The position numbers and the translations under genes are program-made. The notes under the pieces were generated by a model. The model worked only from the letters and a program-made list of their open reading frames with translations. It made no database searches and was not told the origin of the DNA. From the NCBI RefSeq assembly GCF_003030305.1, contig NZ_CP023676.1, forward strand, positions 1,550,001 through 1,614,000: DNA of 64,000 nucleotides. Direction: 5' to 3'. Positions 1 to 13,744 of this stretch are shown here, one piece after another; within the stretch, counting starts at the first letter, position 1, and each line of letters begins with the position of its first letter. Source of the stretch: Cutibacterium acnes. GTDB taxonomy: Bacteria > Actinomycetota > Actinomycetes > Propionibacteriales > Propionibacteriaceae.

Positions 1-224
1 AAACTGCGATCGTCGCGCGCGATGACGAGCCCGACGGCTCCAGCCCGATTGGCCGATAGCGCTCTCGCAGCCACATTGGGACGCCACCCCAGGTCCTTGG
101 CCACTGCCTTAACCCGGGCTCTCGTGGAATCGGAGACGCCCGGCTTGTCATTAAGGGCGAAGGAGACTGCGCCGGGGGACACACCGGCAAGCCTGGCGAT
201 GTCCTTGATCGTCGTCCTGTCCAT
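1..224 (-). CDS. LacI-family transcriptional regulator, N-terminal part (cut by window edge)
   Basis: Read on the minus strand, the first 74 codons give an N-terminus beginning MDRTTIKDIARLAGVSPG, followed by VSFALNDKPGVSD and WRPNVAARALSANRAG. This is the classic LacI helix-turn-helix plus hinge helix, and it enters the start of the sugar-binding domain (GAVGLVIAR). The C-terminal effector-binding domain lies outside the window. Family members are dimers that release DNA when a sugar binds. The gene is divergent from the alpha-mannosidase gene, and LacI-type operator sequences lie on both sides of the glycosidase block. It is therefore probably the local repressor of the glycan genes; that role is inferred. 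Confidence 0.9.
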   Translation of the reverse strand, partial: MDRTTIKDIARLAGVSPGAVSFALNDKPGVSDSTRARVKAVAKDLGWRPNVAARALSANRAGAVGLVIARDDRS

Positions 225-340
225 GAAGTCACGGTCCTTCTCGAAGCATGAATGCCCTGTCGGGGGCCTAGGGGCGTCATCGCCCGAGGCTCATTGCCTC
301 GACCCCGCGCGGCATCATTTTAAGGCTATCTGCAGCGATA

Positions 341-355
341 GGTAAAACGCTTCAG
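341..355. promoter_or_regulatory. LacI-type operator-like site upstream of the regulator
   Basis: The sequence GGTAAAACGCTTCAG has the central CG and flanking A/T half-sites typical of LacI-family operators. It closely matches GGTAAACCGTTTCAG at 6795-6809. Its position about 120 bases upstream of the regulator start would suit autoregulation. Function is inferred from the repeated motif. Confidence 0.5.
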
Positions 356-799
356 CACCCTGTCGAATTGGTCTTGCCAATTCCATATCCGTCACTAGTT
401 CCCTATGCTGGGAGATGTCATGCCCCAGACGAGCCTTCGAGGTTCGCCCAAGCCAAGTCGTTGCCGACCGGATGGCACACCAGGTCATGAGCACTATCAA
501 GCGGACTAGCCGACGTGTCATTATCCGCAACCCATACATATGAGCTTCATGACGATGGTGGTTCATTATCACCCGAAAGTCGGTATGCCTCGATCACGAG
601 CGTCTGTAACTACTACGCAGTATGGCGGGGCGACGACCCATCACGGATGGTGGCTATTACCCTGATCGCCACTGGCTTGCTAGCCCGGTCCACGACGATC
701 GCCCCTAGACCACACCACGATCCTCCTCGACGAGGGGCCCCGAGTCGCTCCGAAATGCGCTCTTGGAGATCGTGTGGTCAATTCCTAACTCAACAGGTT

Positions 800-817
800 G
801 ACTAAACCGTATTAGTC
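800..817. promoter_or_regulatory. Palindromic operator-like site upstream of the mannosidase
   Basis: GACTAAACCGTATTAGTC has six-base inverted arms (GACTAA and TTAGTC) around a CG centre, and shares the core TAAACCGT with the site at 6795-6809. It ends 26 bases before the earliest possible start of the mannosidase gene, where a repressor would block transcription. Confidence 0.5.
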
Positions 818-843
818 ACTACACTTCACACTGAAACTATCCG

Positions 844-3800
844 TTGTCAATGTCGCAACCGCCAGGGACTCCAATGCATGATCACGCCCCCATTCTTGAC
901 GACAGGGTGCATCGCCATCTCGCTGAGAAGATTCGCCCCGCCGAGACCACCACGGTGTGCCACCTAAACGTCGAGTGGGCCCCCGTCACCGACACCGTCG
1001 AGGGGTTGAACAGCCGGCCCGGGGTCGTCGGCCAGGGTGAACCCATCTCGATCAGTGCGGGCCTAGCCCTGGCATATGAGCCCTTCCGGATAGGCGACAC
1101 ATGGGGACCGCCATGGGGAACAACGTGGTTTCACCTCACCGCGACTGTACCGCCAGAGCACCGCGACGACCACCTTGAGATGATCGTCGACCTCGGTGGA
1201 GTCTGGGACTCCCCCGGATTCCAGTCCGAGGGGCTAGTCGTGCGTCCGGACGGATCCATCATCAAGGCCCTCAACCCGCGCAATACCTGGATTCCTGTCG
1301 AGACTGACACTGAAGGTCACATTGACGTCTACGTCGAAGCCGCCTCGAACCCCATCTTGCTAGCCCAGCCGCCCTTCCAACCTACCGAGGACGGTGACAA
1401 GCTCACCGCCTCTACCGACACCTATTACTCGCTCAAGCGAGCCGACCTCGTCGTCGTCAATGACGAGGTACGCGAACTCATTGCCGACATTGTCACCTTG
1501 TCTGGTTTGGCCGCCCAGTTGCCGGAGGACTCCGAGCGTCGCTGGGACGTTCGTCGCGCCCTGGACCGCGCTATGGATCGCCTTGACCTATTCGACGTCG
1601 TCTCTTCTGCATCAGCAGCTCGCAGCGAGTTAGCCCCTGCCTTGACCCGCCCCGCGCATGACTCGGCCCAGACGATGACTGCCATCGGCCACGCCCACAT
1701 TGACTCCGCCTGGCTGTGGCCACTGCGCGAAACCCGACGCAAGGTCGCTCGAACAATCTCCAATCAGCTCAACCTCATCGACACCGACCCGGCCCACATC
1801 TTTGCCTTCCCAGCCGCTCAGCATTCGGCCTGGCTCGAAGAGGATCATCCTGATCTCTTCGCCAGGTTGCAGAAGGCTGTCAAGGATGGTCGCATCATCC
1901 CGGTCGGCGGTATGTGGGTGGAGTCCGATGCCAACCTTCCCGGGGGTGAGTCGATGTGCCGGCAGCTGTTGTACGGACAGCGCTATTTCATGGCGAAACT
2001 CGGCCACCATTGTCCCGAAGTGTGGTTGCCCGACTCTTTTGGCTACTCCGGCGCATTACCCCAGCTCGCCAAATTGGCCGGTGCCCACTGGTTTTTAACC
2101 CAAAAGATTTCTTGGAACCAGGTCGATAAGTTCCCTCACCATTCGTTCTGGTGGGAAGGAATCGACGGGACCCGCATCTTCACTCACTTCCCGCCAGCCG
2201 ATACCTATGGCTCCGACTTGTCGGCTCACGATCTCGAGCATGCCCGAGCCAATTTCCAGGACAAAGGTCGCTCCAATTCCTCCTTGGTGCCCTTTGGCTA
2301 CGGTGACGGCGGTGGCGGCCCCACTCGCGAAATGCTCGCCCAAGCCCGCCGAGTTGCTGATCTTGACGGATCCCCCAAGCTAGCTATCGAGCCTCCGGCC
2401 ACCTTCTTCTCTCGGGCGGAGTCCGAGCATGAAGACCCCGGAACATGGGTCGGAGAGCTCTACCTCGAGCTGCACCGTGGCACCTTCACCAGCCAATACG
2501 AGGTCAAAAAGGGGAACCGTCGCAACGAACACCTGTTGCGTGACGCCGAGCTGTGGTGCGCCACTGCAGCCGTACGCGAGCTCATGGATTATCCCGGGGA
2601 GCGCCTGGCCGAGATCTGGCGGACGATCTGCCTGTATCAGTTCCACGACATCTTGCCCGGGTCAGCCATCGCGTGGGTGTACCGCGAGGTCGTCGCCGAT
2701 CACCGTCGTATCTCCGACGAATTAACCGAACTCATTCACCACGCCCAAGAGCTACTGGCTGGGGAGGGGGACGAAGAGATCGTCTTTGACTCCGCACCCA
2801 TGGCCCGCCCATGGGCCTCCACGGTCGCCATGGGCGGCAGCAAAGCTCCGTCCATCACGGAGGGCGTCCACGCCGAAGAAAACGAGGAAGACTTCATCGT
2901 TGATAACGGTCTGCTACGCATGACTGTTGACGCGCACGGACTCATCACGCACCTCGTCGACACCGCCAGTGGCCGAGACGCCATTCCTGCGGGTCAGCGC
3001 GGCAACCTACTCCAAATACACCCAGACTTCCCGAACATGTGGGATGCCTGGGACATCGACCCCTTCTACGCCAACACCGTCACCGACCTCGACGACGGCC
3101 AAGCCACCATGAGCCGCAAGGACGGGTCAGTGACCATCAGCGTCACGAGGACTTTTGGCCACTCCAGCGCAACCCAGTCTCTGACTGTCAATCCGGGAGA
3201 TCCGCGTGTCAAGGTGCACACCCATGTCGACTGGCATGAGCAGGACAGCCTCTTGAAACTGGCCTGGCCGGTGGACGTCCACACGGATCATGCCGATTAT
3301 GAGATCGAGATGGGCCACATCACTCGCCCCACCCACACCAATACGTCGTGGGATGCTTTCCGGTTCGAAGTCAATGCTCATCGGTGGGTTTACGTGTCCG
3401 AACCCGGTTTCGGTGTTGCCATCGCCAACTCTGACACCTACGGATGGAATGTGTCTCGTCACCCCAAAGACAACGGCGGCACCTGGTCGGTTGCTCGCGC
3501 ATCTCTCCTTAAAGGGGCCCGCTTCCCCGATCCTCGTGCTGACGAGGGTGAGCACGATTTCTTCCACACTCTGCATGTCGGCGCAGATCTGGCCGACGCT
3601 ATTCGCGACGGGTACGCCGCCAACCTGTGTGTACGTCGTCGTCAGGGTTCTCCGGTCGAGCCGTTGGTGAGTGTTGAGGGGGTTGCAGTCGAAGCCGTCA
3701 AACTGGCCGAAGACGGCTCTGGTGACGTCATCGTCCGGCTGTACGAGCCCTACGGACGTCACGTTCACACCACGATGACTCTGGGGTTTGAGGCCACCTC

Positions 3801-3957
3801 GGCCGTCGAAGTCGACCTGCTCGAGGACCCCCTCGACGGCAACCCGCACGCCCAGGTAGCGCCGTCGGTCGTCACCGCTGACCTTGCTGACGGCACCATC
3901 GGTTTGTCCATGCGCCCCTTCCAGGTCGCGACCCTCAGGTTGGGACGCAACCGATGA
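844..3957 (+). CDS. GH38 alpha-mannosidase
   Basis: This 1037-residue protein hydrolyses terminal alpha-linked mannose from glycans. The GH38 signature is clear: HAHIDSAWLWPLRET near residue 283 supplies metal-binding His and Asp. LPDSFGYSGALPQ holds the catalytic nucleophile Asp near residue 397, which is also a metal ligand. A C-terminal beta-sandwich region typical of the family follows. The length fits bacterial and class II enzymes of about 1000 residues. There is no signal peptide, so it should act in the cytoplasm on imported glycans. The start is uncertain: TTG 844, ATG 850 and ATG 874 are all in frame, and the last has an AGGGA five bases upstream. The next gene overlaps its stop by four bases, so the two are translationally coupled. 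Confidence 0.93.
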   Translation: MSMSQPPGTPMHDHAPILDDRVHRHLAEKIRPAETTTVCHLNVEWAPVTDTVEGLNSRPGVVGQGEPISISAGLALAYEPFRIGDTWGPPWGTTWFHLTATVPPEHRDDHLEMIVDLGGVWDSPGFQSEGLVVRPDGSIIKALNPRNTWIPVETDTEGHIDVYVEAASNPILLAQPPFQPTEDGDKLTASTDTYYSLKRADLVVVNDEVRELIADIVTLSGLAAQLPEDSERRWDVRRALDRAMDRLDLFDVVSSASAARSELAPALTRPAHDSAQTMTAIGHAHIDSAWLWPLRETRRKVARTISNQLNLIDTDPAHIFAFPAAQHSAWLEEDHPDLFARLQKAVKDGRIIPVGGMWVESDANLPGGESMCRQLLYGQRYFMAKLGHHCPEVWLPDSFGYSGALPQLAKLAGAHWFLTQKISWNQVDKFPHHSFWWEGIDGTRIFTHFPPADTYGSDLSAHDLEHARANFQDKGRSNSSLVPFGYGDGGGGPTREMLAQARRVADLDGSPKLAIEPPATFFSRAESEHEDPGTWVGELYLELHRGTFTSQYEVKKGNRRNEHLLRDAELWCATAAVRELMDYPGERLAEIWRTICLYQFHDILPGSAIAWVYREVVADHRRISDELTELIHHAQELLAGEGDEEIVFDSAPMARPWASTVAMGGSKAPSITEGVHAEENEEDFIVDNGLLRMTVDAHGLITHLVDTASGRDAIPAGQRGNLLQIHPDFPNMWDAWDIDPFYANTVTDLDDGQATMSRKDGSVTISVTRTFGHSSATQSLTVNPGDPRVKVHTHVDWHEQDSLLKLAWPVDVHTDHADYEIEMGHITRPTHTNTSWDAFRFEVNAHRWVYVSEPGFGVAIANSDTYGWNVSRHPKDNGGTWSVARASLLKGARFPDPRADEGEHDFFHTLHVGADLADAIRDGYAANLCVRRRQGSPVEPLVSVEGVAVEAVKLAEDGSGDVIVRLYEPYGRHVHTTMTLGFEATSAVEVDLLEDPLDGNPHAQVAPSVVTADLADGTIGLSMRPFQVATLRLGRNR

Positions 3958-5180
3958 AGATTGGCGCCAATTACACCCCGTCCCAAGGGTGGTTTCACAG
4001 CTGGCTTGACCTCGATATCGACGCCACCCGCCGTGACTTTGAAGGCATCGCCCAGCTCGGCCTCGATCATGTGCGCCTATTTCCGCTCTGGCCGTTGTTA
4101 CAGCCTAACCGCGGTCTGGTCCGCCCACGGGCCCTCGATGACGTCGTCTCCGTCGTACGCGCGGCCGGCGAATTCGACCTTGAGGTTACCGTCGATGCCC
4201 TCAATGGACATCTGTCGAGTTACGACTTTCTGCCCCCCTGGGTGATCACATGGCACACGTCAAATCTCTTCACCGATCCGCTCGTCAAGGCTGGCCAGAC
4301 CGACCTCATCAGCCAACTGGCAACTCGCCTGCGGGAGGAGCCGAACGCCACCGGCATGACGGTGGGCAACGAGTTCCCGCAGTACGCAGCTCTGGCCCCG
4401 GGCCATCATCATCCGACGCGCAGCGAGTGCACCGTCGATGACGCCCAGACGTGGTTGGAAACGATGCTCGGGACCATGCGGGACCAGTGGCCAGACGGAC
4501 GGTTCTGGTTCGGATTCGACGACGACCTCTGGTTCGTCGACGACCATCCGTTCACCCCGCGTCACGCCGTGACTCAGGGATCTGCTACGACCGTCCATTC
4601 TTGGGTGTTCGCGCAGGTCGGGCCGCGGTTCGGAGAGGGACATCCCGCCCTGACGTGGTTCCCGCGCTATCTGCTCGAACTAGCGCGGGCCTGGAGCCAT
4701 GATCCCGAGCGTCCACTCTGGCTGCAGGAGGTAGGAGCACCTCGAACCCATGTGCCCGACTCCAGCTCGGCCGCCTTTATGACGACAACGATGGCGTCAC
4801 TAACCTCAACGCCAGGCTTGGAAGCCATCACCTGGTGGTGCTCCCACGACGTCTCCCGTGACTTACTGGATTTTCCAGAACTGGAGTATTCGTTAGGCCT
4901 CTTTACCAACGACGGCAAGCCAAAGCCGGAAGCTCTGGCCCTGTCGGACATGCTGCCCGATCTGCACAACGCCCAACCCCAGCACCAACTCGACGAACCA
5001 CTCGAGTTCAGCGCCAACTGGGATACCGGAGCGGGGCGCTCAGTGTGCTCCCCGATGGGTGATCTCTTCGCTCAATGGGTTGACCAGGCGGAACAAACCG
5101 GCCGAGCGCCCAGGCTCGCGCTTCGTCCCACCCCTGGGCTCACAGACCGAGAAGCCCTCGCCAGTGCTCGAGCCCACTGA
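3954..5180 (+). CDS. GH5-like glycoside hydrolase, probable beta-mannosidase
   Basis: This 408-residue protein begins with a (beta/alpha)8-barrel-like sequence (IGANYTPSQGW, then LGLDHVRLFPLWP). It has the two glutamates expected of a clan GH-A retaining enzyme. The acid/base Glu is at residue 140 in TVGNEFPQ and the nucleophile Glu at residue 259 in LWLQEVGAP. No signal peptide is visible. Its start overlaps the mannosidase stop (ATGA), so the two are co-translated. Subfamily GH5_18 members in bifidobacteria cleave the Man-beta-1,4-GlcNAc core of N-glycans. That role fits the neighbouring alpha-mannosidase and hexosaminidase, but the exact subfamily is inferred. Its 3' end overlaps the convergent hexosaminidase gene by 41 bases. 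Confidence 0.8.
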   Translation: MKIGANYTPSQGWFHSWLDLDIDATRRDFEGIAQLGLDHVRLFPLWPLLQPNRGLVRPRALDDVVSVVRAAGEFDLEVTVDALNGHLSSYDFLPPWVITWHTSNLFTDPLVKAGQTDLISQLATRLREEPNATGMTVGNEFPQYAALAPGHHHPTRSECTVDDAQTWLETMLGTMRDQWPDGRFWFGFDDDLWFVDDHPFTPRHAVTQGSATTVHSWVFAQVGPRFGEGHPALTWFPRYLLELARAWSHDPERPLWLQEVGAPRTHVPDSSSAAFMTTTMASLTSTPGLEAITWWCSHDVSRDLLDFPELEYSLGLFTNDGKPKPEALALSDMLPDLHNAQPQHQLDEPLEFSANWDTGAGRSVCSPMGDLFAQWVDQAEQTGRAPRLALRPTPGLTDREALASARAH

Positions 5181-6708
5181 CCGGCTTGGCTGCAACCTCC
5201 TCATAATCAGCCCCTCCCGGGAGCCTGGCCATGGATCGTGCCAGGCCTCTGGGTCGGCTGGTTCGTAACCACGCAGTGGCAAAACGATCCAGGAGAGCCG
5301 GGGACACCGTCAGTTCTCCCCCGGTCAGGACGTCGAGGCTGTGGCAGACAAGGTCCAGACCGATACGCACGTCTTCCACCCACCCGATCGGGCCGCCACC
5401 GAGGGCAGCCTCAGTCTCGTTCGCGCGGTCGTGGAGTCGAGCAATTTCTGCACGGGTGGCAGCGATCCCGTCAGCTCCCAGGTCATCGCCTGGGTCCCCT
5501 TCCAGCAGGCACCGAGCCGGCAGTGAATGGTTACGTCGTATGACACCGAGCTTGTCCTCCAGCAGACCTGCTCCGACGAGCAGGTGCGCACCAGGGTGAT
5601 CATCGACGTCGAACAGCGCCTGCGACACCGCGTTGACAAGGGATTTAGCCGAGTTCAGCCCTTCGGCATGCTCCGGATCCGCCATCGCGACGCCAGTGAC
5701 GACAAGAGGAACGAGAGAGAAGACGAGTCCCGCATGATGTCCGCTGTCTCCCCAACCCGTGAGCAAGACCCCCTTGCCACCCAGGGAGTGATCGGTGATG
5801 ACGGCGTCGACGATATTGCCGACGGCGTTGCTCAGACGTCCGGTGAAAGTGTTCCACGCTCCAGTTCCGGGAGCATTCACGAACGGCCGACCAGCATTGG
5901 CAACGAGACGGGCGGTGGACGCGAATCCGGCATCAGAACGAATCTCGTAACCTTCCGTGTCAGCGAACTTGGCTTCCATCGCGGGGGACTCATAAGTCCA
6001 CGGGATGAGCAGGACCTCATCGGGAATGATGTCGAGTGCTTCAGGATGGGAATTGACGATGTCAGCCCACATGGCAACCCGCCAGCCCCTGTCGAGCCAT
6101 GGGGTGACGACGTCGCGCGCCCATTTCGCGTACACAACCCCCTTGCCCTCATCTCGGCACCGATCAGCACTGACACCGGTGCCCAGCTCCCACGGCTCGT
6201 CCAGACCTACGTTGAGAAACTTCGACGAGACAGTCTCCGTCAGTTCGCCCAACAACCTCTGAACGAAGTCAAGATTCTCCGGCACTGGAGCCAAGGTGCT
6301 TGCCCTGGCATGAACGCCCCAGGGGAGGTCGACGCCGTCGGGATTCTCACACCGATGGTGATGGGACTCGGTTTCCAACCACGGTTCCATGTGACCCAGA
6401 CAGTTCTGGTTGGCCCCGAGCTCGATGCCTCGTCCGCGACACAGACCATCGAGCCACCTCATGTCCTCCGCCGTCACGGGGCTGCGGTCGGCCCACACCT
6501 CCTCCTCACCGCGGTAGGCAAATCCCGCTTCACCATAGAGCTCAAGGTGATTGAGACCACACCGCGCCATGACGCGCGTCAGGAAATCAAGAGTGGAACG
6601 CGTCGGCACACGATCACGGCTGACATCGAGCATGAAGCCACGGAAACTGTCGTCGTATCGTGCAGCATTCACAGGAAACCAACTAGTTCCCGCAGACATC
6701 GTCGTCAT
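5140..6708 (-). CDS. GH20-type beta-N-acetylhexosaminidase
   Basis: This 522-residue protein starts its catalytic barrel with FRGFMLDVSRDRVPT and LNHLELYGEAGFAY. It carries the paired Asp-Glu of GH20-type hexosaminidases at residues 170-171 (FLNVGLDEPWELG), where Asp orients the substrate acetamido group and Glu is the general acid. No signal peptide is seen, implying a cytoplasmic enzyme that trims GlcNAc. ATG at 6708 was chosen because GGAGG lies eight bases upstream; an in-frame ATG at 6750 has no such site. The gene is divergent from the transporter operon, and the intergenic region holds an operator-like site. It converges on the GH5 gene with overlapping 3' ends. It could instead be a related GH20-like exo-enzyme with other aminosugar specificity. 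Confidence 0.82.
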   Translation of the reverse strand: MTTMSAGTSWFPVNAARYDDSFRGFMLDVSRDRVPTRSTLDFLTRVMARCGLNHLELYGEAGFAYRGEEEVWADRSPVTAEDMRWLDGLCRGRGIELGANQNCLGHMEPWLETESHHHRCENPDGVDLPWGVHARASTLAPVPENLDFVQRLLGELTETVSSKFLNVGLDEPWELGTGVSADRCRDEGKGVVYAKWARDVVTPWLDRGWRVAMWADIVNSHPEALDIIPDEVLLIPWTYESPAMEAKFADTEGYEIRSDAGFASTARLVANAGRPFVNAPGTGAWNTFTGRLSNAVGNIVDAVITDHSLGGKGVLLTGWGDSGHHAGLVFSLVPLVVTGVAMADPEHAEGLNSAKSLVNAVSQALFDVDDHPGAHLLVGAGLLEDKLGVIRRNHSLPARCLLEGDPGDDLGADGIAATRAEIARLHDRANETEAALGGGPIGWVEDVRIGLDLVCHSLDVLTGGELTVSPALLDRFATAWLRTSRPRGLARSMARLPGGADYEEVAAKPVSGLEHWRGLLGL

Positions 6709-6794
6709 GCGGACAACCTCCACGTCATTGTCGAGAAATTGATACGTCAATCGTGTTGTACCCGTTCGTAATCCGGTGTATCTTCCTAACGGCA

Positions 6795-6809
6795 GGTAAA
6801 CCGTTTCAG
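6795..6809. promoter_or_regulatory. LacI-type operator-like site between hexosaminidase and transporter operons
   Basis: GGTAAACCGTTTCAG differs from the site at 341-355 at only two positions and shares its TAAACCGT core with the site at 800-817. It sits in the divergent promoter region of the hexosaminidase gene and the ABC importer operon, so one bound repressor could control both directions. This ties the transporter to the same regulator as the glycosidases. Confidence 0.55.
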
Positions 6810-6864
6810 TTGACGACGAAGTCGACCGTCCATGACCTGATTCACGAAGGGGTGATTACACTAT

Positions 6865-7974
6865 ATGACCAGTCCAGGTCACCCTGAGCCTACCGCTCAG
6901 GAGCTCCCGACCACGGCTGACCCCGCTGTGGACCCGTCGCATGCGCAACCCCAGACCTCGGGGCGCTCGCGGCGTCCACATCGTCGTGGCGGCGGAGCGT
7001 TCCTTCTCAAGCGGCTGGGCACGTACCTGATAGTCGCCGTCGTGTCAGTGTTGCTGAATTTTATCCTGCCGCGCTTCATGCCGGGCGATCCCGCCACCCA
7101 GCTCATCAAGGACATCGTGGCCAAGACCGGCGCCCCGCCATCGGGCTACCAGATGCGCCTCATCAAGGCGCGCTACGGTGATCCCGATCGCTCGGTTCTC
7201 CTCCAGTTCTGGGACTACCTCGTTCAGTTGGCCCACGGAGACCTCGGAAAGTCCATCGAGTACTACCCCGTCAACGTCACGACCCTCATCAACCAGGCTC
7301 TACCATGGACCTTGTACCTGGCCATCGCCTCGACGATCCTCGGTTGGATCGTTGGAACCTGGTTGGGTGTCCGACTGGGGTGGAAGCCCGGACGCAAGCT
7401 CGACTCGATCGTCACCCCCTTATCGATGTTCTTCAGCTCGATCCCAGCCTTCTGGCTCGGCCTGCTCATCGTATGGTACTTCGCCTACAAGAACGGCTGG
7501 TTCCCCAACCAGGGCGCCTAATGAGCCTGACCAACGGCCACTTCATCGCATCGGTGCTCATGCACTCGGTACTTCCGTTCTTCACCCTTGTCATCGTCGG
7601 GTTCGCAGGCTGGCTGTTCAGCATGCGCAACATGATGATCACCACCGTCAACGACGGATTATGTCCAGCTCGCCCGCGCCAAGGGTCTGTCGTCCTCGCG
7701 CATTCGCAATCGCTACGCCGCGCGTAACGCCATCCTTCCCAACTTCACCGGACTCGCTCAGAGCATCGGTGGCTCCTTGACGGCCGTCATTCTGGCCGAG
7801 GCGGTGTTCATCTATCCCGGTATCGGCTCCCTCCTCTCGGGCGCTCAGGGCCATCGTGACTACCCGGTCATGCAGGGAATCATGCTGATGATCATCTTCA
7901 TGAGCCTGCTGTTCAACTTCATCGCGGACTCGGTCTACGTCATCCTCGATCCACGGACTCGAGAGGAGGCCTGA
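6865..7974 (+). pseudogene. Oligopeptide-type ABC permease (DppB-like), interrupted by two frameshifts
   Basis: The reading frame encodes a DppB/OppB-type inner-membrane permease: a long N-terminus, TM1 (LIVAVVSVLLNFILPRFMPG), then TM segments to GWFPNQGA, where TAA at 7519 ends the frame. The protein continues in a second frame (SLTNGHFIASVLMHSVLPFF) as if one base were missing near 7519. It returns to the first frame at 7656-7657, where an extra G interrupts the cytoplasmic coupling loop (restored reading DDYVQLARAKGLS). It then runs to ILDPRTREEA. Correcting both sites gives one normal permease of about 369 residues. Either the gene is inactivated or both indels are sequencing errors. The downstream permease and ATPases are intact. 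Confidence 0.85.
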
Positions 7975-7976
7975 TA

Positions 7977-8909
7977 ATGGTCAAAAGGTTCCTCGGAGTC
8001 GGGAAGGTGCAGGTCGGTCTCGCGATCATGCTCTTCTTCATCCTGGTCGCCATCCTCGGGCAGCCCTTCTGCACCCATGTGCTGCATACCAGCCCTTACC
8101 AGGTCGACTACATGACTCTGGGCGGTACAGCCCCCGGAGGCAAACACTGGCTGGGCACCACCAGCGCCGGACAGGACGTCCTGGCATGGATGCTGTACGG
8201 CACCCGAAACTCGGTGGTCGTCGGTCTAGCCTCCGCCGTCATCGGAACGGTCCTGACCGTCGTCATCGGGACCTGGGCCGGATTCTCCGGCGGCTGGATT
8301 GACCGCTTCCTCGATGGATTCATCCTGGTCTTCGCCAACATCCCGACCTTCGCCATCCTGTTCATGATCGCCGGTGTCATGCAGAACGCGGGCTGGCTGC
8401 TGGTGTCCCTCGTCATTGGCTGCTTCGAATGGTCCGGCGGTGCCCGTCAGATCCGCGCCCAGGCAATGTCCCTGCGAGGACGCGATTTCACCACGGCCCT
8501 GCGGACCATCGGTGAATCGCAGTCCCACATCGTGCTCTCAGAGGTCATGCCGCACCTGCTCGGCCTCATCTCCCCGATGTTCCTGCGACTCATCGCCGCC
8601 GGCGTCAACATGCAGGCGTCCCTAGCCTTCCTCGGTATCGGTGACCCGTCCATGCCGTCCTGGGGCCTCATGATCAACTGGGCCATGACGCAGAACGCGC
8701 TGTTCCGCGGTCTGTGGTGGTGGTTCATTCCTCCGGGTCTCGCACTCGCCCTTATCGGTTTCGCAACCACCATGATCAACTTCGGTCTCGACGAGGTTAC
8801 CAACCCGACGCTGTCGACCAAGCGTATGAACCTCATGCGCAAGTTCGAGAAGGCCAAGAAGCTGGCCGCAGCCAAACACCCTACCCATGCCGAGGAGACC
8901 GCTGCATGA
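7977..8909 (+). CDS. Oligopeptide-type ABC transporter permease (DppC-like)
   Basis: This 310-residue integral membrane protein is the second permease subunit of the importer. It has an N-terminal TM (VGLAIMLFFILVAILGQPF), the DppC-like motif HWLGTTSAGQDVLAWMLYGTR, and four to five further TM segments. The coupling-helix loop follows as IRAQAMSLRGRDFTTALRTIGES. It starts two bases after the first permease gene ends, and its stop overlaps the ATG of the first ATPase (ATGA). In this family the heterodimeric permease forms the channel for peptides, nickel or oligosaccharides. The neighbouring cytoplasmic glycosidases suggest glycans or glycopeptides here. Confidence 0.92.
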   Translation: MVKRFLGVGKVQVGLAIMLFFILVAILGQPFCTHVLHTSPYQVDYMTLGGTAPGGKHWLGTTSAGQDVLAWMLYGTRNSVVVGLASAVIGTVLTVVIGTWAGFSGGWIDRFLDGFILVFANIPTFAILFMIAGVMQNAGWLLVSLVIGCFEWSGGARQIRAQAMSLRGRDFTTALRTIGESQSHIVLSEVMPHLLGLISPMFLRLIAAGVNMQASLAFLGIGDPSMPSWGLMINWAMTQNALFRGLWWWFIPPGLALALIGFATTMINFGLDEVTNPTLSTKRMNLMRKFEKAKKLAAAKHPTHAEETAA

Positions 8910-9997
8910 CCGCCCAGAGTTCTTCCACTCAAGCCAGGCACGGCATGACCACCGACAACGAAGTCCTGCTGGAGGTCAAGGGTCTGTGCGTCGATTACGT
9001 CACCGAGTCCGGAAACATCCGCGCCTGTGACAACGTCAACTTCCTCCTTCGACGCGGCGAAATCCTTGGCGTCGCCGGTGAGTCGGCGTGTGGAAAGTCG
9101 ACCCTGCTCAACGCACTCGGACGCCTGCAGCGGATGCCTGCCGCCACGAGCGCTGGCCAGATCCTCTTCCATGATCGCAACGGCAGCGTCACCGACCTGG
9201 CGACCCTGTCCGAAGCGGACCTCAAGCCGTATCGATGGACCAAGATCGCCGTCGTCATGCAGTCGGCAATGGCCTGCCTCAACCCCATCCTCAAACTGTC
9301 CGAGCAGTTCATCGACGTCCAGCGCGCCCATGATCCCTCGTTGGCAGAGAAGGATGCGTTGACCAAGTCCGCCGAGCTCTTGGAGGCGGTCGGGATCTCC
9401 GCAGACCGACTCTCGTCTTTCCCCTTCCAGCTCTCAGGTGGCATGCAGCAGCGTGCCCTCATCGCGCTGTCCTTGGTGTGCGAGCCGGATCTGGTTCTCA
9501 TGGACGAGCCCACCACGGCCGTCGACGTCGTCATGCAGCGACAGATCCTTCAGGAGGTGCTAGCGGCCCAGAAGAGACTCGGATTCTCGATCGTCTTCGT
9601 CACCCACGACCTGTCCCTCCTCATGGAGATCTCGGACAAGATAGCGATCATGTACGCCGGACAGATCGTCGAGGTTGGCACCCCGGCACGATTCCACTCC
9701 AGTGCCCGTCACCCGTACACCCGCGGTCTGCGTCTGGCCTTCCCGCCGCTGAGCGAGCCACTGCGTCGACTCGAAGGCATCAAGGGTTCTCCCCCTGACC
9801 TTCTCGACCTGCCAACCGGTTGTGCCTTCGCTCCGCGGTGCGAATTTGCCATGCCGATCTGTCATCAACGAATCCCCGAGCTTCGCACCATCGACGAGGG
9901 AGCGTCTGCCTGCTACCTGTCAAACGGAGAGCTTTCCGATCAAGAACTGGCGGACCAGCAGAAGCAGGCCACGAATCATGAGGAGGCGATCGCATGA
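8906..9997 (+). CDS. ABC transporter ATP-binding protein (DppD-like)
   Basis: This 363-residue ATPase energises the importer. It has Walker A GESACGKST, where Ala-Cys replaces the more usual Gly-Ser. It also has the signature LSGGMQQRALIALSL, Walker B LVLMDEPTTAVD and the switch His in VFVTHDLSLL. A C-terminal oligopeptide-ABC domain with a Cys-containing segment (GCAFAPRCEFAMPICHQ) follows, typical of DppD/OppD proteins. The start ATG 8906 overlaps the permease stop. A second in-frame ATG at 8945 (MTTDNEVLLEVKG) is an alternative start. Confidence 0.92.
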   Translation: MTAQSSSTQARHGMTTDNEVLLEVKGLCVDYVTESGNIRACDNVNFLLRRGEILGVAGESACGKSTLLNALGRLQRMPAATSAGQILFHDRNGSVTDLATLSEADLKPYRWTKIAVVMQSAMACLNPILKLSEQFIDVQRAHDPSLAEKDALTKSAELLEAVGISADRLSSFPFQLSGGMQQRALIALSLVCEPDLVLMDEPTTAVDVVMQRQILQEVLAAQKRLGFSIVFVTHDLSLLMEISDKIAIMYAGQIVEVGTPARFHSSARHPYTRGLRLAFPPLSEPLRRLEGIKGSPPDLLDLPTGCAFAPRCEFAMPICHQRIPELRTIDEGASACYLSNGELSDQELADQQKQATNHEEAIA

Positions 9998-11025
9998 CCG
10001 GCGCCCACGTCGACGACCGCACCGCGGTCCTTGAGGCACGCAACGTCAGTCTGGATTTCGACGGCACGGATTCGTCAGGATCCAAGGTGACCATCCACGC
10101 CCTCGACCGCGTCAACCTGACCATTCACCGCGGCGAGATCACTGCCCTCGTCGGTGAGTCGGGTTCCGGCAAAACGTCGATCGCCCGTCTTTTCGCCCTG
10201 ATCTACAAGCCCACGAGCGGCGAGCTCTACCGTAACGGCGAGTTGGTGCACGTGCACGGCAAGCGTGCCGAACGTGCCTACTATCGAGATGTCCAGCTCA
10301 TCTACCAGGACCCTTTCGCATCCCTCAACGGACTGAAGAAGATCTCGACAATCCTGGGCCGGGTCTTCAAGATCCACTACCCGAAGATGCGTCGCAAGGA
10401 AATTGCTCAGCGGATTGACGACGTCTTAACAAAGGTCAACATGACACCGCCGTCGCGCTACCTCAACCGCTACCCCACTGACCTTTCGGGTGGTCAGCGT
10501 CAGCGCATCGCCATCGCCCGAGCTCTGGCGGTCAGCCCGCAGGTTTTGCTGGCCGACGAACCAACATCGATGCTCGACGCCTCCATCCGTCTGGACGTTC
10601 TCAACCTGCTGTCGGATCTGCGTGAGACCGAAGGAGTGTCGGTCCTCTACATCACCCATGACATCGCATCCGCGCGCTACATCTGTGACCGCATCAACGT
10701 CATGTACGGCGGTCGCATCGTCGAAGCTGGCCCGACTAAGCAGATCATCAGCGACACCATTCACCCCTATACCCGCCTCCTCTTGTCCGCCGCGCCCGAT
10801 CCGGCTCGGTACAAGGGATCGGCCAACAGCACCGCGATCGATATTCTCGAAGGCGCCCCCATGAATAACTCCGTGAGGGTTAAAGGATGTCGTTTCGCAC
10901 CATTATGTCCGTTGGCACAACCCCGTTGCACCGAGGAGGAGTTGCCTAAGTTCCACAGCGAGGACGGCACTCGGGAAGTCACATGCTGGGAGGCGGAAGA
11001 ACGGAGGGAATTCCATCGAGTATGA
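9994..11025 (+). CDS. ABC transporter ATP-binding protein (DppF-like)
   Basis: This second ATPase of 343 residues is the partner of the preceding one. It shows Walker A GESGSGKTS, Q-loop IYQDPFASLNG, signature LSGGQRQRIAIARAL, Walker B LLADEPTSMLD and the switch His in YITHDIAS. Its C-terminal motif CRFAPLCPLAQPRC matches the OppF/DppF tail. Its ATG overlaps the stop of the first ATPase gene by four bases, indicating coupled translation. Heterodimeric ATPases of this class drive import by periplasm- or surface-binding-protein-dependent systems. Confidence 0.92.
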   Translation: MTGAHVDDRTAVLEARNVSLDFDGTDSSGSKVTIHALDRVNLTIHRGEITALVGESGSGKTSIARLFALIYKPTSGELYRNGELVHVHGKRAERAYYRDVQLIYQDPFASLNGLKKISTILGRVFKIHYPKMRRKEIAQRIDDVLTKVNMTPPSRYLNRYPTDLSGGQRQRIAIARALAVSPQVLLADEPTSMLDASIRLDVLNLLSDLRETEGVSVLYITHDIASARYICDRINVMYGGRIVEAGPTKQIISDTIHPYTRLLLSAAPDPARYKGSANSTAIDILEGAPMNNSVRVKGCRFAPLCPLAQPRCTEEELPKFHSEDGTREVTCWEAEERREFHRV

Positions 11026-11071
11026 CAATACGTTCTGGTATGTTCTCTCCATAGAAGGCAGTCATTGATTT

Positions 11072-11111
11072 TGTCTCCAAAAAGACACATTAATACCCAA
11101 ATGAGGGTATT
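11072..11111 (+). promoter_or_regulatory. Two small stem-loops in the leader of the solute-binding protein
   Basis: TGTCT (11072-11076) pairs with AGACA (11083-11087). AATACCC (11092-11098) pairs with GGGTATT (11105-11111) across a six-base loop. The second stem contains most of the GAGGG ribosome-binding sequence (11103-11107) of the gene starting at 11117, so folding could limit translation. The regulatory role is inferred from the position alone. Confidence 0.4.
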
Positions 11112-11116
11112 TTAAC

Positions 11117-12832
11117 ATGGACCCGAAACCACTTAGTTTTCCAATTTCGCGGCGATCCTTGCTCTTCACCGCAGGGTCGGTTGCCCTCACCATTCCGCTG
11201 CTGAGCGCATGCGGCAGTGGTGACACTGACGCCAAGGGCAGCAGAAGCAAGAAGGGCACCATCGCCAAAGACGGCGTATTGACCATCGGCGCCGCAGTCT
11301 CGACCTCGAACGTCTTCCCCCACAACTTCAACGTGTTCGGCGGTGGTGATTCCGCTCCTGGCAACGCCATGTTCTGGGAGACCTTGTTCCGCATCTCCTC
11401 CAAGGACGGCATGAAGCTGGTGCCGAATCTCGCTAAGGAGGTCAAGTACACCAGCGGCGGCAAGGTCGCAACGTACAAGCTGCGCGACGACGTCACCTGG
11501 AATGACGGAAAGCCGTTCACCTCGAAGGACGTTGCCTTCACCTATGGCTTCATCTTCGGCCCACCCGGACAATCCACCGAGAAGGATTTCAAGTGGCTCG
11601 CTAAGCCGATTGAAACCCCCGATAAGCACACCGTTGTGGTTACCTATAATGAGCCTCAGTATACTGAGGATATTCCGCTCTCGCTGTACTTCCCGATTTA
11701 CCCGGAGCACATTTACAGCAAGGTTGACCACCAGAATTATGTGGACAAGAATCCGGTTGGAACCGGTCCTGGAAAGCTGAAGTCTTTCGCCGGCCAGCTC
11801 ATTGAAATCGACATTCGTGACGATTACTGGGGCAAGAAGCCCAAGGGCGTCAAGACCATCAAGCTGGTGCCGGCAGGAACCGCTGGCAACATTCAGTCCC
11901 AGATCACCCAGGGCAAGGTCGACTGGGCCGAGGGCGGCGACCCTGGCGTCATCACCAGCTTCCTCCCGATGGACAAGGACCACAACGGCTACAACTACTA
12001 CGCCGACGGTTCGACCCGAGGAATCATCCTATCGACCCACTCCCTGCCGACCTCCGACGTGGCCGTTCGCAAGGCCCTGCGAGCTAGCGTAGACATGGGC
12101 GTCGTCGCCAAGGCTGGCGGTGTCGGATACACCGTGCCCAGCGTGACCGGCCTGGATCCTGTCATCTACGCCAACATGCTGAAGCCGGAGTTCAAGAAGC
12201 CGATGGCTCCGGATGTCGAGGCTGCCAAGAAGTTCCTCAAGGATGCCGGCTGGACCGTTCAGAATGGCAACCTCTGCAAGGACGGCAAGGAATACCCGCT
12301 CCAGCTGACCATTCGTAATGACAACCCGGTCGAGATGGCCACTATGCCGATCGTCGTCTCCCAGTGGAAGGACAACCTGGGCATCAACGTCAAGTTCACC
12401 CCGCTGCCCAAGGAAGTCTTCGACCCCGCCCAGGCCATGGGCGAGTATGACATGTCGCTGTGGACGACCAACGCCGCCGGTGGCGCGTTCAACGCCTACA
12501 CGATGTACATGCAGACGAAGAACTACAAACTTGGCGACAAGAAGGCCGACGGCAACTACGGTCGCTGGAAGTGCTCCAAGGAAGCCGACGAAGCCATCGC
12601 GAACCTCCCGAAAGTGCCGCAGGACGACATCAAGGAGATCACTCGTCGTCGCCAGATCCTGCAACAGGCCGTCTACGACGATGCCCCGTACATTCCGGTG
12701 CAGAACTCGGGTACTGGCGGCATGTACACCACCAAGAAGTGGAGCGGCCTCAAGAAGGCGGAGGACGTCGACTACTTTCCGCGCGCCAGTGGCTACAACA
12801 ATATGATTCACACGGTCAACGACTTCGACTGA
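11117..12832 (+). CDS. ABC transporter solute-binding lipoprotein (SBP family 5)
   Basis: This 571-residue extracellular binding protein captures the substrate for the importer. Its N-terminus has a twin-arginine-like motif (ISRRSLLF), a hydrophobic stretch and a lipobox (LLSACGS). It should therefore be a membrane-anchored lipoprotein. The body shows family 5 hallmarks: LVPNLAKEVKYT, YKLRDDVTWNDGKPFTSKDV and the C-terminal RRRQILQQAVYDDAPYIPV. Family 5 proteins bind peptides, glycopeptides, nickel or oligosaccharides. Unusually for such operons the binding protein comes after the permeases and ATPases, with a 91-base leader of its own. Confidence 0.92.
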   Translation: MDPKPLSFPISRRSLLFTAGSVALTIPLLSACGSGDTDAKGSRSKKGTIAKDGVLTIGAAVSTSNVFPHNFNVFGGGDSAPGNAMFWETLFRISSKDGMKLVPNLAKEVKYTSGGKVATYKLRDDVTWNDGKPFTSKDVAFTYGFIFGPPGQSTEKDFKWLAKPIETPDKHTVVVTYNEPQYTEDIPLSLYFPIYPEHIYSKVDHQNYVDKNPVGTGPGKLKSFAGQLIEIDIRDDYWGKKPKGVKTIKLVPAGTAGNIQSQITQGKVDWAEGGDPGVITSFLPMDKDHNGYNYYADGSTRGIILSTHSLPTSDVAVRKALRASVDMGVVAKAGGVGYTVPSVTGLDPVIYANMLKPEFKKPMAPDVEAAKKFLKDAGWTVQNGNLCKDGKEYPLQLTIRNDNPVEMATMPIVVSQWKDNLGINVKFTPLPKEVFDPAQAMGEYDMSLWTTNAAGGAFNAYTMYMQTKNYKLGDKKADGNYGRWKCSKEADEAIANLPKVPQDDIKEITRRRQILQQAVYDDAPYIPVQNSGTGGMYTTKKWSGLKKAEDVDYFPRASGYNNMIHTVNDFD

Positions 12833-12845
12833 TGTAATCATGAAT

Positions 12846-12877
12846 GATGCCTGGGGCCTTACGGAGCCCCGGGCATC
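12846..12877 (+). terminator. Intercistronic stem-loop between binding protein and GH18 gene
   Basis: GATGCCTGGGGC and GCCCCGGGCATC form a 12-base stem with one G-T pair and an eight-base loop. No T-run follows. It may act as a partial terminator, or protect the binding-protein mRNA so that this product exceeds the enzyme encoded downstream. Confidence 0.5.
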
Positions 12878-12907
12878 GTCCCGCTCTCCCCACAACCAGA
12901 GGTTCTG

Positions 12908-13744
12908 ATGCCAACCGATCACCGGATCGTGGCCTACCACCAGACCCATGGGCACGGCGACACCTTCGTCGATCTGTCCCCCCTGGGAGCGAGCGCCCCA
13001 CTCACCCACCTCATCGTCGCGGCCTTGCACATTGCCGACGACGGCACCGTCATTCTCAATGATCATCCGGTTGACGACGACTACCACACCCAGTTGTGGG
13101 ACCAGCTCGATGCGGTGAGATCGCGCGGTGTCCGCGTCCTCGCCATGGTCGGCGGCTGGGCCCCGGGCACGATGTGCAAACTCGACGGCGAATCATTGTC
13201 GATCTACTACCCCGGGCTACGAGATTTCCTAACGCAACGCCATTTCGACGGTATCGACATCGACGTCGAGCAAGAGATGTCCTTGCCCGGTGTGTGCACC
13301 CTCATCGAAAGGTTCCGCTCAGACTTCGACGAGGACTTCGAGATCGTTCTTGCTCCTGTTGCCTCGGCCCTTCATGGTGACGCCAACCTGTCTGGCTTCG
13401 ACTATCAAGAACTCCACCAGCTGCGTGGGGACGACATCGACTTCTACAACGCGCAGTTCTACTCAGGTTTCGGCTCCCTTGCGAGCCCTGACGACTACAT
13501 CTCCATTGTCGAGCACAGCATCATCCCGGTGAATAAGATCGTCACTGGGATGGCTGGCAGTCCAGACGCCGCACAGGGTTTCGTCGACATGGCCACTGTG
13601 TCAGACACCATTTCCACGCTGTGCCAGCGCTACCCAAATTTCGGCGGTGTCGACGTCTGGGAATACCCCTTGGCGTTACCAGGAGCGCCGGACCATCCTG
13701 ACCAATGGGTTCATGTCATGCATCACGCGATGTCTCACCGCTGA
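12908..13744 (+). CDS. GH18 glycoside hydrolase, probable endo-beta-N-acetylglucosaminidase
   Basis: This 278-residue single-domain protein has the GH18 catalytic motif DxxDxDxE as DGIDIDVE at residues 114-121, with Glu121 the expected acid. Other family features are VLAMVGGWAPGT (substrate-binding strand 3) and DFYNAQFYSGFG. Its small size, lacking chitin-binding domains, fits endoglycosidases that cut the GlcNAc-GlcNAc core of N-glycans better than secreted chitinases. There is no signal peptide, so it would act inside the cell after import. It follows the binding-protein gene by 75 bases on the same strand. A chitinase-like or other GH18 role cannot be excluded. Confidence 0.78.
   Translation: MPTDHRIVAYHQTHGHGDTFVDLSPLGASAPLTHLIVAALHIADDGTVILNDHPVDDDYHTQLWDQLDAVRSRGVRVLAMVGGWAPGTMCKLDGESLSIYYPGLRDFLTQRHFDGIDIDVEQEMSLPGVCTLIERFRSDFDEDFEIVLAPVASALHGDANLSGFDYQELHQLRGDDIDFYNAQFYSGFGSLASPDDYISIVEHSIIPVNKIVTGMAGSPDAAQGFVDMATVSDTISTLCQRYPNFGGVDVWEYPLALPGAPDHPDQWVHVMHHAMSHR

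Follow-up and report, generated by a model that had tools for sequence, protein, structure and literature searches.

We analysed a 64,000-base stretch of the Cutibacterium acnes genome (bases 1,550,001-1,614,000 of 2,495,001; hereafter the window), which opens with genes for glycoside hydrolases (GH) and for an Opp/Dpp-type ATP-binding cassette (ABC) importer. Their order, GH38, GH5_18, GH20 and GH18 together with ABC genes, matches the published N-glycan-processing locus 1. In our reading, which we hold to be likely, this locus is composed of a LacI-controlled core, formed by a sugar-type ABC importer (CUT1), GH38 and GH5_18, and of an inserted GH20-Opp-GH18 block whose importer probably does not work. 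The N-glycan locus itself is already known and had not, as the initial annotation assumed, gone undescribed as one system. Reichenbach et al. (2018) reported it under this name, with four glycosidases in a cytoplasmic pathway and with GH5_18 assayed and solved (PMC6160142), and the GH20-transporter-GH18 block appeared in Brzuszkiewicz et al. (2011) as genomic region 8 (PAZ_c15380-15460), specific to three type I-1a strains (PMC3124536). What we add is the regulon, a case for CUT1 as the importer, the broken permease in its context, and fused cytoplasmic endo-beta-N-acetylglucosaminidase (ENGase) systems of relatives. The features concerned are as follows (window positions unless stated otherwise):

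Stretch L003:7955-11194, upstream of the window: sugar-type ABC importer CUT1, with a binding protein of the sugar type (PF01547/PF13416) and two permeases (PF00528)
1..224, minus strand: N-terminal part of the LacI regulator; the whole gene spans window -786..224 (L003:11215-12225), PF00356 and PF13377 over cut-off
800..817: LacI-type operator palindrome GACTAAACCGTATTAGTC upstream of GH38; position weight matrix score 23.8, a training site
874..3957, plus strand: GH38 alpha-mannosidase; longest open reading frame opens at 844; four Pfam GH38 domains
3954..5180, plus strand: GH5_18 exo-beta-1,4-mannosidase CaMan5_18; full-length match to PDB 6gvb
5140..6750, minus strand: GH20 family protein, GH20C-like (PF00728, 9e-7); first gene of the GH20-Opp-GH18 block
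6794..6811: weak operator-like site between GH20 and permease B, score 11.4
6865..7974, plus strand: permease B, Opp/Dpp-type, broken by frame changes near 7520 and near 7655
7977..8909, plus strand: permease C, Opp/Dpp-type (PF00528, NF045476)
8906..9997, plus strand: ATPase D, Opp/Dpp-type (PF00005, PF08352)
9994..11025, plus strand: ATPase F, Opp/Dpp-type (PF00005, PF08352)
11117..12832, plus strand: family 5 solute-binding lipoprotein (PF00496), closest to mannoside and chito-oligosaccharide binders
12908..13744, plus strand: GH18, a predicted ENGase of the Endo-T/Eng18 type without signal peptide (Pfam, 2y8v and 4ac1 matches, DGIDIDVE motif)

The locus begins before window base 1, with the LacI regulator and CUT1 upstream, and it is not a single operon, since GH20 lies on the minus strand and converges on GH5_18. 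The comparison set holds one genome per species: nine genomes classed together, the window genome included (below, the genus), and 196 other genomes of the family Propionibacteriaceae. Gene neighbourhoods in relatives were taken from fetched stretches annotated in part, and some relatives are incomplete metagenome-assembled genomes (MAGs). For the distribution of the permease B breaks among strains we relied on the literature.

The four glycosidases announced by the initial annotation are confirmed by Pfam or solved-structure matches, and their lack of signal peptides was upheld by N-terminal inspection and hydropathy. GH38 contains PF01074 (302 bits) plus three other GH38 domains, all over cut-off and together covering the catalytic, middle and C-terminal parts; its best solved match is the alpha-mannosidase 7ufs (2.7e-240), and Ams1 is matched too. 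A Pfam search with the GH5_18 protein gave no match, and the protein aligns with PDB 6gvb over 408 of 408 residues at 961.2 bits (self-score 960.8). The structure 6gvb is that of the C. acnes exo-beta-1,4-mannosidase CaMan5_18, and beta-mannosidase activity, the cleavage of Man-beta-1,4-GlcNAc (GlcNAc, N-acetylglucosamine), has been published for this very protein (PMC6160142). Activities of the remaining enzymes are predicted from their sequence matches. The GH5-like and GH18 enzymes now have a subfamily placement, GH5_18 and the Endo-T type ENGase group. N-glycan degradation, the function first proposed, is well supported: GH5_18 is proven, GH18 is of the Endo-T type, GH85, GH92 or GH29 is linked in relatives, and an operator is held in common with secreted endoglycosidases.

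GH5_18 was found in eight of the nine genomes of the genus, G104 being the one without it, and in all eight it is accompanied by CUT1, LacI and GH38 (in G094, CUT1 and LacI are on a different contig from GH38). By comparison, the window genome alone has GH20, GH18 and the family 5 binding protein: none of them (for the binding protein, at E 1e-60) had a match in the other eight genomes, and no remnants of the block were detected by blastn or tblastn in seven GH5_18-coaD gaps of the genus (G104 excluded). In G035 this slot is occupied by another GH20 and in G053 by a GH31 (L063:11211-12773, L066:11160-13463), so it is variable and serves as a site for accessory glycosidases. In G181, a Propionibacteriaceae MAG related to Tessaracoccus, a CUT1 homologue adjoins a secreted GH85; this arrangement suggests that CUT1 takes the product ending in one GlcNAc and Opp the one ending in two. 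CUT1, although outside the window, probably does the importing in place of the Opp importer.

Palindromes were sought in the spacers between LacI and GH38 and in neighbouring promoters; GACTAAACCGTATTAGTC was found there, with close relatives in other species. Searched across 392 kb of fetched DNA, a matrix built from five sites produced 29 hits scoring at least 14 (28 of them distinct, counting the five training places); ten Markov-sampled sets produced 0.2 on average. The exact pattern CTAANNCGNNTTAG occurs at 24 places in the nine whole genomes of the genus, and each of them is found at most about 100 bases ahead of the gene for the CUT1 binding protein (8), for GH38 (8), for a secreted GH85 (4) or for a secreted Endo-H-like GH18 (4). 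G104, devoid of GH5_18, has no exact site; the window genome has three, ahead of CUT1, GH38 and the secreted GH18 at 1,051,002. Since all 24 sites precede CUT1, GH38 or secreted endoglycosidases, they support one N-glycan regulon in the genus, with the LacI protein as the putative repressor at the palindrome. The second published locus (stretch L004: GH38, GH125, GH20) contains no site scoring 8 or more. The site at 6794 does not exceed chance expectation (2.75 hits of at least 9 per shuffled 64 kb) and was dropped as a true operator. Further palindromes beginning with CTAAC were seen in Tessaracoccus (G179:C3, C6, C77; G187:C97) and perhaps belong to another regulator. A limited literature search found no published description of the operator palindrome.

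The secreted GH18 of the window genome (L087:503-1444; genome 1,051,002-1,051,943) is open, has a twin-arginine start as judged by eye, carries an exact operator upstream and matches Endo H at 5.2e-74. The secreted GH85 (L086; genome 1,919,000-1,927,500, minus strand) is broken beyond the catalytic part: its open frame runs to 621 codons, later parts lie in other frames, and its start has only a weak operator-like site (8.4). In all six other genomes of the genus having GH85, the gene is open over at least 1,089 codons. The pseudogenes of strain HL096PA1 include an 'Endo-beta-N-acetylglucosaminidase family protein' (PMC3666418).

Initially, the block was credited with a five-gene importer serving the locus. 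Enzymes and Opp/Dpp-type ABC genes are indeed present, but the set of five is not intact, permease B having two breaks. Of this gene 218 codons are readable and the remainder lies only in other frames, the parts being those before about 7520, from about 7520 to about 7655, and after about 7655; the middle piece was recognised by eye with the Microbacteriaceae MAG L042 as reference. Because permease B is broken, the Opp importer probably does not work via its own genes, and we find no support for it as the working importer of the locus; the block's own importer is probably dead in the window strain. A homopolymer or assembly error is an unlikely source of the breaks, judged by eye and by a pseudogene of equal length in HL096PA1. 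Among the 79 pseudogenes listed for that strain by Kasimatis et al. (2013) is a 1,110-bp 'putative peptide ABC transporter, permease component' (PMC3666418), which would be the same gene as window 6865-7974. The locus tags PAZ_c15380-15460 cover the block (PMC3124536); if numbered in tens, they would put seven genes, and not the expected five, between GH20 and GH18, in keeping with a split permease in strain 266. The presence of the block in the window genome fits type IA, GH20 and GH18 being reported as missing from types IB, II and III (PMC6160142). Permease B could be read in six relatives with a close GH18. Five of them (Microlunatus parietis, M. speluncae, G181, T. caeni and L042) have it open, whereas T. 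bendigoensis has it broken. G037, a genome without close GH18, has an open copy as well, and the contig of the MAG G002 contains only the end of the gene.

The pathway would run as follows. A secreted endoglycosidase, either an Endo-H-like GH18, as in the window genome, or GH85, would free Man(n)GlcNAc from host glycoproteins, and CUT1 would bring it into the cell. There GH38 would take off alpha-mannose, after which GH5_18 would cleave Man-beta-1,4-GlcNAc into mannose and GlcNAc. The LacI protein would keep CUT1, GH38-GH5_18 and the secreted enzyme repressed until product arrives. Behind GH5_18, in the window genome alone among the nine of the genus, stands the inserted block. In relatives, it would import glycans with both core GlcNAc and cut the core intracellularly; in C. 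acnes, its GH18 and GH20 may add the use of glycans ending in two GlcNAc if another importer supplies them.

Several points weigh against this reading. Both the substrate of CUT1 and its regulation by the LacI protein are predictions from sequence. A control with the pattern reversed found 16 forward hits in these nine genomes, compared with 24 for the pattern itself, so the strength of the operator lies in the position of its sites and not in their number, and the motif was partly learned at the GH38 and CUT1 sites themselves. GH85 is preceded by an exact site in four of the seven genomes of the genus having this gene. Eight genomes outside the genus contain 12 exact sites, six at GH38, CUT1 or permease B and six elsewhere. 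Restricting positions 5 and 10 of the palindrome to A or T, a change arrived at post hoc and not used, would keep seven sites there, six of them in the pathway. The HL096PA1 pseudogene was equated with permease B by length and name only, and a partner permease from elsewhere could rescue the importer. The role of GH20, given its few relatives and low Pfam score, is the least certain part.

It is possible, if on balance doubtful, that the whole GH20-Opp-GH18 block is a functionless, decaying remnant in C. acnes IA and that the CUT1-GH38-GH5_18 core alone works. The broken permease B would agree with such decay, and so would the weak operator-like site fronting the block, in contrast to the strong sites that precede permease B in T. 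bendigoensis, T. caeni, G181 and L042. Secreted GH85, open elsewhere in the genus, is broken too. However, the block's six remaining genes have open frames, and the 2011 comparison reported the region in all three type I-1a strains compared (PMC3124536).

What the block does when intact may be seen in relatives. A GH18 more than 50% identical is present in six of the 196 other family genomes and in the Microbacteriaceae MAG L042. A profile scan of genome contigs with a seven-sequence GH18 alignment yielded 15 loci, seven of them over 50% identical; a contig scan with the single GH18 sequence as query gave no match, no further match exceeded 29% identity in a class-wide search of 394 sampled genomes, the window genome among them, and a 30-base scan found no stray copies in viral contigs. 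The family 5 binding protein was found in five of the six genomes with a close GH18 versus four of the 190 without (Fisher p 3e-7). The exception, M. speluncae, has the gene for this protein split over two frames, damage to Opp genes thus being met outside C. acnes too. GH18 is clustered with Opp genes in M. parietis, M. speluncae, G181, T. bendigoensis and L042; T. caeni and G002 have them on separate contigs. G181, T. caeni, T. bendigoensis and L042 have the GH38-GH5_18 pair near GH18; the stretches fetched for G002 and for the two Microlunatus species did not contain the pair.

In G181, T. caeni and T. bendigoensis, a single protein lacking a signal peptide carries GH18 at its N-terminal end and GH20 behind it, and G002, a low-coverage Propionibacteriales MAG, encodes a fusion of GH18 with a GH29 fucosidase in one open frame of 729 codons (L028:2207-4393). 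The T. bendigoensis cluster also holds GH85, GH29 and a metallopeptidase of the M81/MlrC type (L033:10485-12086), and those of T. caeni and L042 hold GH92. In T. bendigoensis, G181, T. caeni and L042, permease B is preceded by operator sites, and further ones lie ahead of the GH18-GH20 gene in T. bendigoensis and of GH92 and a secreted GH18-lectin gene in L042. The two Microlunatus species have only a weak site (10.9) ahead of permease B, and no site was found in the scanned stretches of G002 and G037.

Since a cytoplasmic chitobiose-cutting enzyme is here fused to domains that remove GlcNAc or fucose, we infer that the glycans arrive with both core GlcNAc. Tentatively, and with doubt and belief close to balance, we propose that in Propionibacteriaceae and the Microbacteriaceae MAG, glycans with this GlcNAc2 core are imported by an Opp importer of the mannoside/chito-oligosaccharide kind, that their chitobiose is cut in the cytoplasm by a fungal-type ENGase under the same LacI-type operator, and that C. 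acnes IA acquired the route, with its importer breaking later. With its ENGase fused to GH20 in Tessaracoccus and a related MAG and to GH29 in another MAG, such a route would parallel that of eukaryotic ENGase and Man2C1. Mammalian ENGase is a GH85 enzyme and Man2c1 a GH38 enzyme. Among the matches listed, we found no publication on the fused cytoplasmic ENGase systems of these relatives.

According to the initial annotation, the five Opp genes form a working importer of host glycopeptides, which are then taken apart in the cytoplasm. We regard this as improbable. The linkage of Opp genes with GH18 in relatives, including the skewed occurrence of the binding protein given above (5/6 with close GH18 versus 4/190 without), would be expected from it, and the M81-family metallopeptidase within the T. 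bendigoensis cluster could serve it. Yet permease B is broken in the window genome, and the binding protein, whose start is by eye of the twin-arginine lipoprotein type, is nearest to oligosaccharide binders. Its best solved match is 4pfu, 'Mannoside ABC transport system, sugar-binding protein' (3.9e-27), and the chito-oligosaccharide binder 1zty follows at 4e-20, against about 2e-9 for OppA and DppA; several chains ranking next carry the depositor label 'peptide ABC transporter'. Because mannoside and chito-oligosaccharide binders, not peptide binders, come first, the family name Opp does not imply peptides. Moreover, the single Asparaginase_2-family gene of the window genome (L069; genome 2,222,689-2,223,548) lies in two frames, leaving no intact glycosylasparaginase. 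The Asparaginase_2 family, which is wider than glycosylasparaginase, includes the enzymes that split GlcNAc-Asn. In seven relatives, some of them incomplete MAGs, no member of the family was detected, and the step needed for GlcNAc-Asn is therefore removed.

The two glycosidases of the block could, finally, act on chitin or fungal cell-wall fragments and not on N-glycans. GH20 scores 29 bits in Pfam against a cut-off of 22.3, and its best profile matches are 5a6b/5a69, the N-acetyl-beta-D-glucosaminidase GH20C. The pair D184-E185, which we take to be the catalytic Asp-Glu pair, is invariant in three of three sequences; clear relatives were found in two of the 196 other family genomes, at 37 and 41% identity. 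GH18 (Pfam score 48.9, cut-off 29.6) matches the solved structures 2y8v (2.8e-91) and 4ac1 (2.1e-90), the next match reaching only 1.3e-14. It is nearer to Endo-T than to bacterial chitinases, and in its DGIDIDVE motif D117, D119 and E121 (D-x-D-x-E) are invariant in eight of eight sequences. It was assigned to the fungal ENGase (Endo-T) group as early as 2012 (PMC3408457); no published assay of this protein was found among the matches listed. Its placement as an Endo-T type ENGase, predicted to cut the chitobiose core, is well supported. Although 2y8v is annotated 'class III chitinase, putative' and the binding protein resembles chito-oligosaccharide binders, action on chitin seems very unlikely, since Endo-T is stated not to take part in chitin degradation (PMC3408457), and the GH18 genes of relatives stand beside GH38, GH5_18, GH92, GH29 or GH85 in stretches annotated in part, where a chitin gene could be missed.

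Set against known systems, locus 1 as published shares with our description GH38, GH5_18, GH20, GH18, transporter and regulator, and another GH18 is named there as a possible releasing enzyme; unlike ours, it calls the IA locus intact, and the excerpts of it mention neither the broken permease nor the operator nor the fusions of relatives (PMC6160142). Region 8 likewise comprises glycosyl hydrolases, a chitinase-like enzyme and dipeptide/oligopeptide/nickel-type ABC genes, but an N-glycan function is not proposed in the corresponding passages (PMC3124536). The high-mannose system of Bifidobacterium longum is alike in having an endoglycosidase outside, import of the whole glycan and GH38 inside (PMC10154615), and the GH38/GH5_18 pair is reported from that species too (PMC6160142). 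By gene content, this set of secreted endoglycosidase, sugar ABC importer and cytoplasmic GH38 and GH5_18 is present in our genome as well. The B. longum operon differs in containing three GH38 and a GH125, and the excerpts do not mention a cytoplasmic Eng18-type GH18 with an Opp importer (PMC10154615). In the EndoD and ABC-NG system of Streptococcus pneumoniae, Man5GlcNAc released by Endo is bound by an ABC binding protein and imported (PMC5215778); EndoD, however, is a GH85 (PMC10154615), and neither a cytoplasmic GH18 nor an Opp-type importer is mentioned in the abstract (PMC5215778). With eukaryotic cytosolic ENGase and Man2c1, free glycans ending in GlcNAc2 are cut to GlcNAc1 and then trimmed by the mannosidase (PMC2909182). 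We draw this comparison as an analogy only, the match of the window GH38 to Ams1 being a further likeness.

It has been suggested that the locus gives IA strains, the type dominant in acne, a nutritional advantage (PMC6160142). This argument becomes weaker, and the gene to be tested changes, if the importer belonging to the locus is broken and the pathway runs via CUT1, present in eight of the nine genomes of the genus. The operator provides a concrete N-glycan regulon for Cutibacterium. In the relatives, our findings point to a possible N-glycan use in which the core is cut intracellularly, and they bring to light natural GH18-GH20 and GH18-GH29 fusion enzymes. Since these relatives link the Opp importer to a cytoplasmic GH18, fused to GH20 or GH29 in four genomes, the block suggests that C. 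acnes keeps a damaged copy of a second route, in which the core is cut inside the cell.

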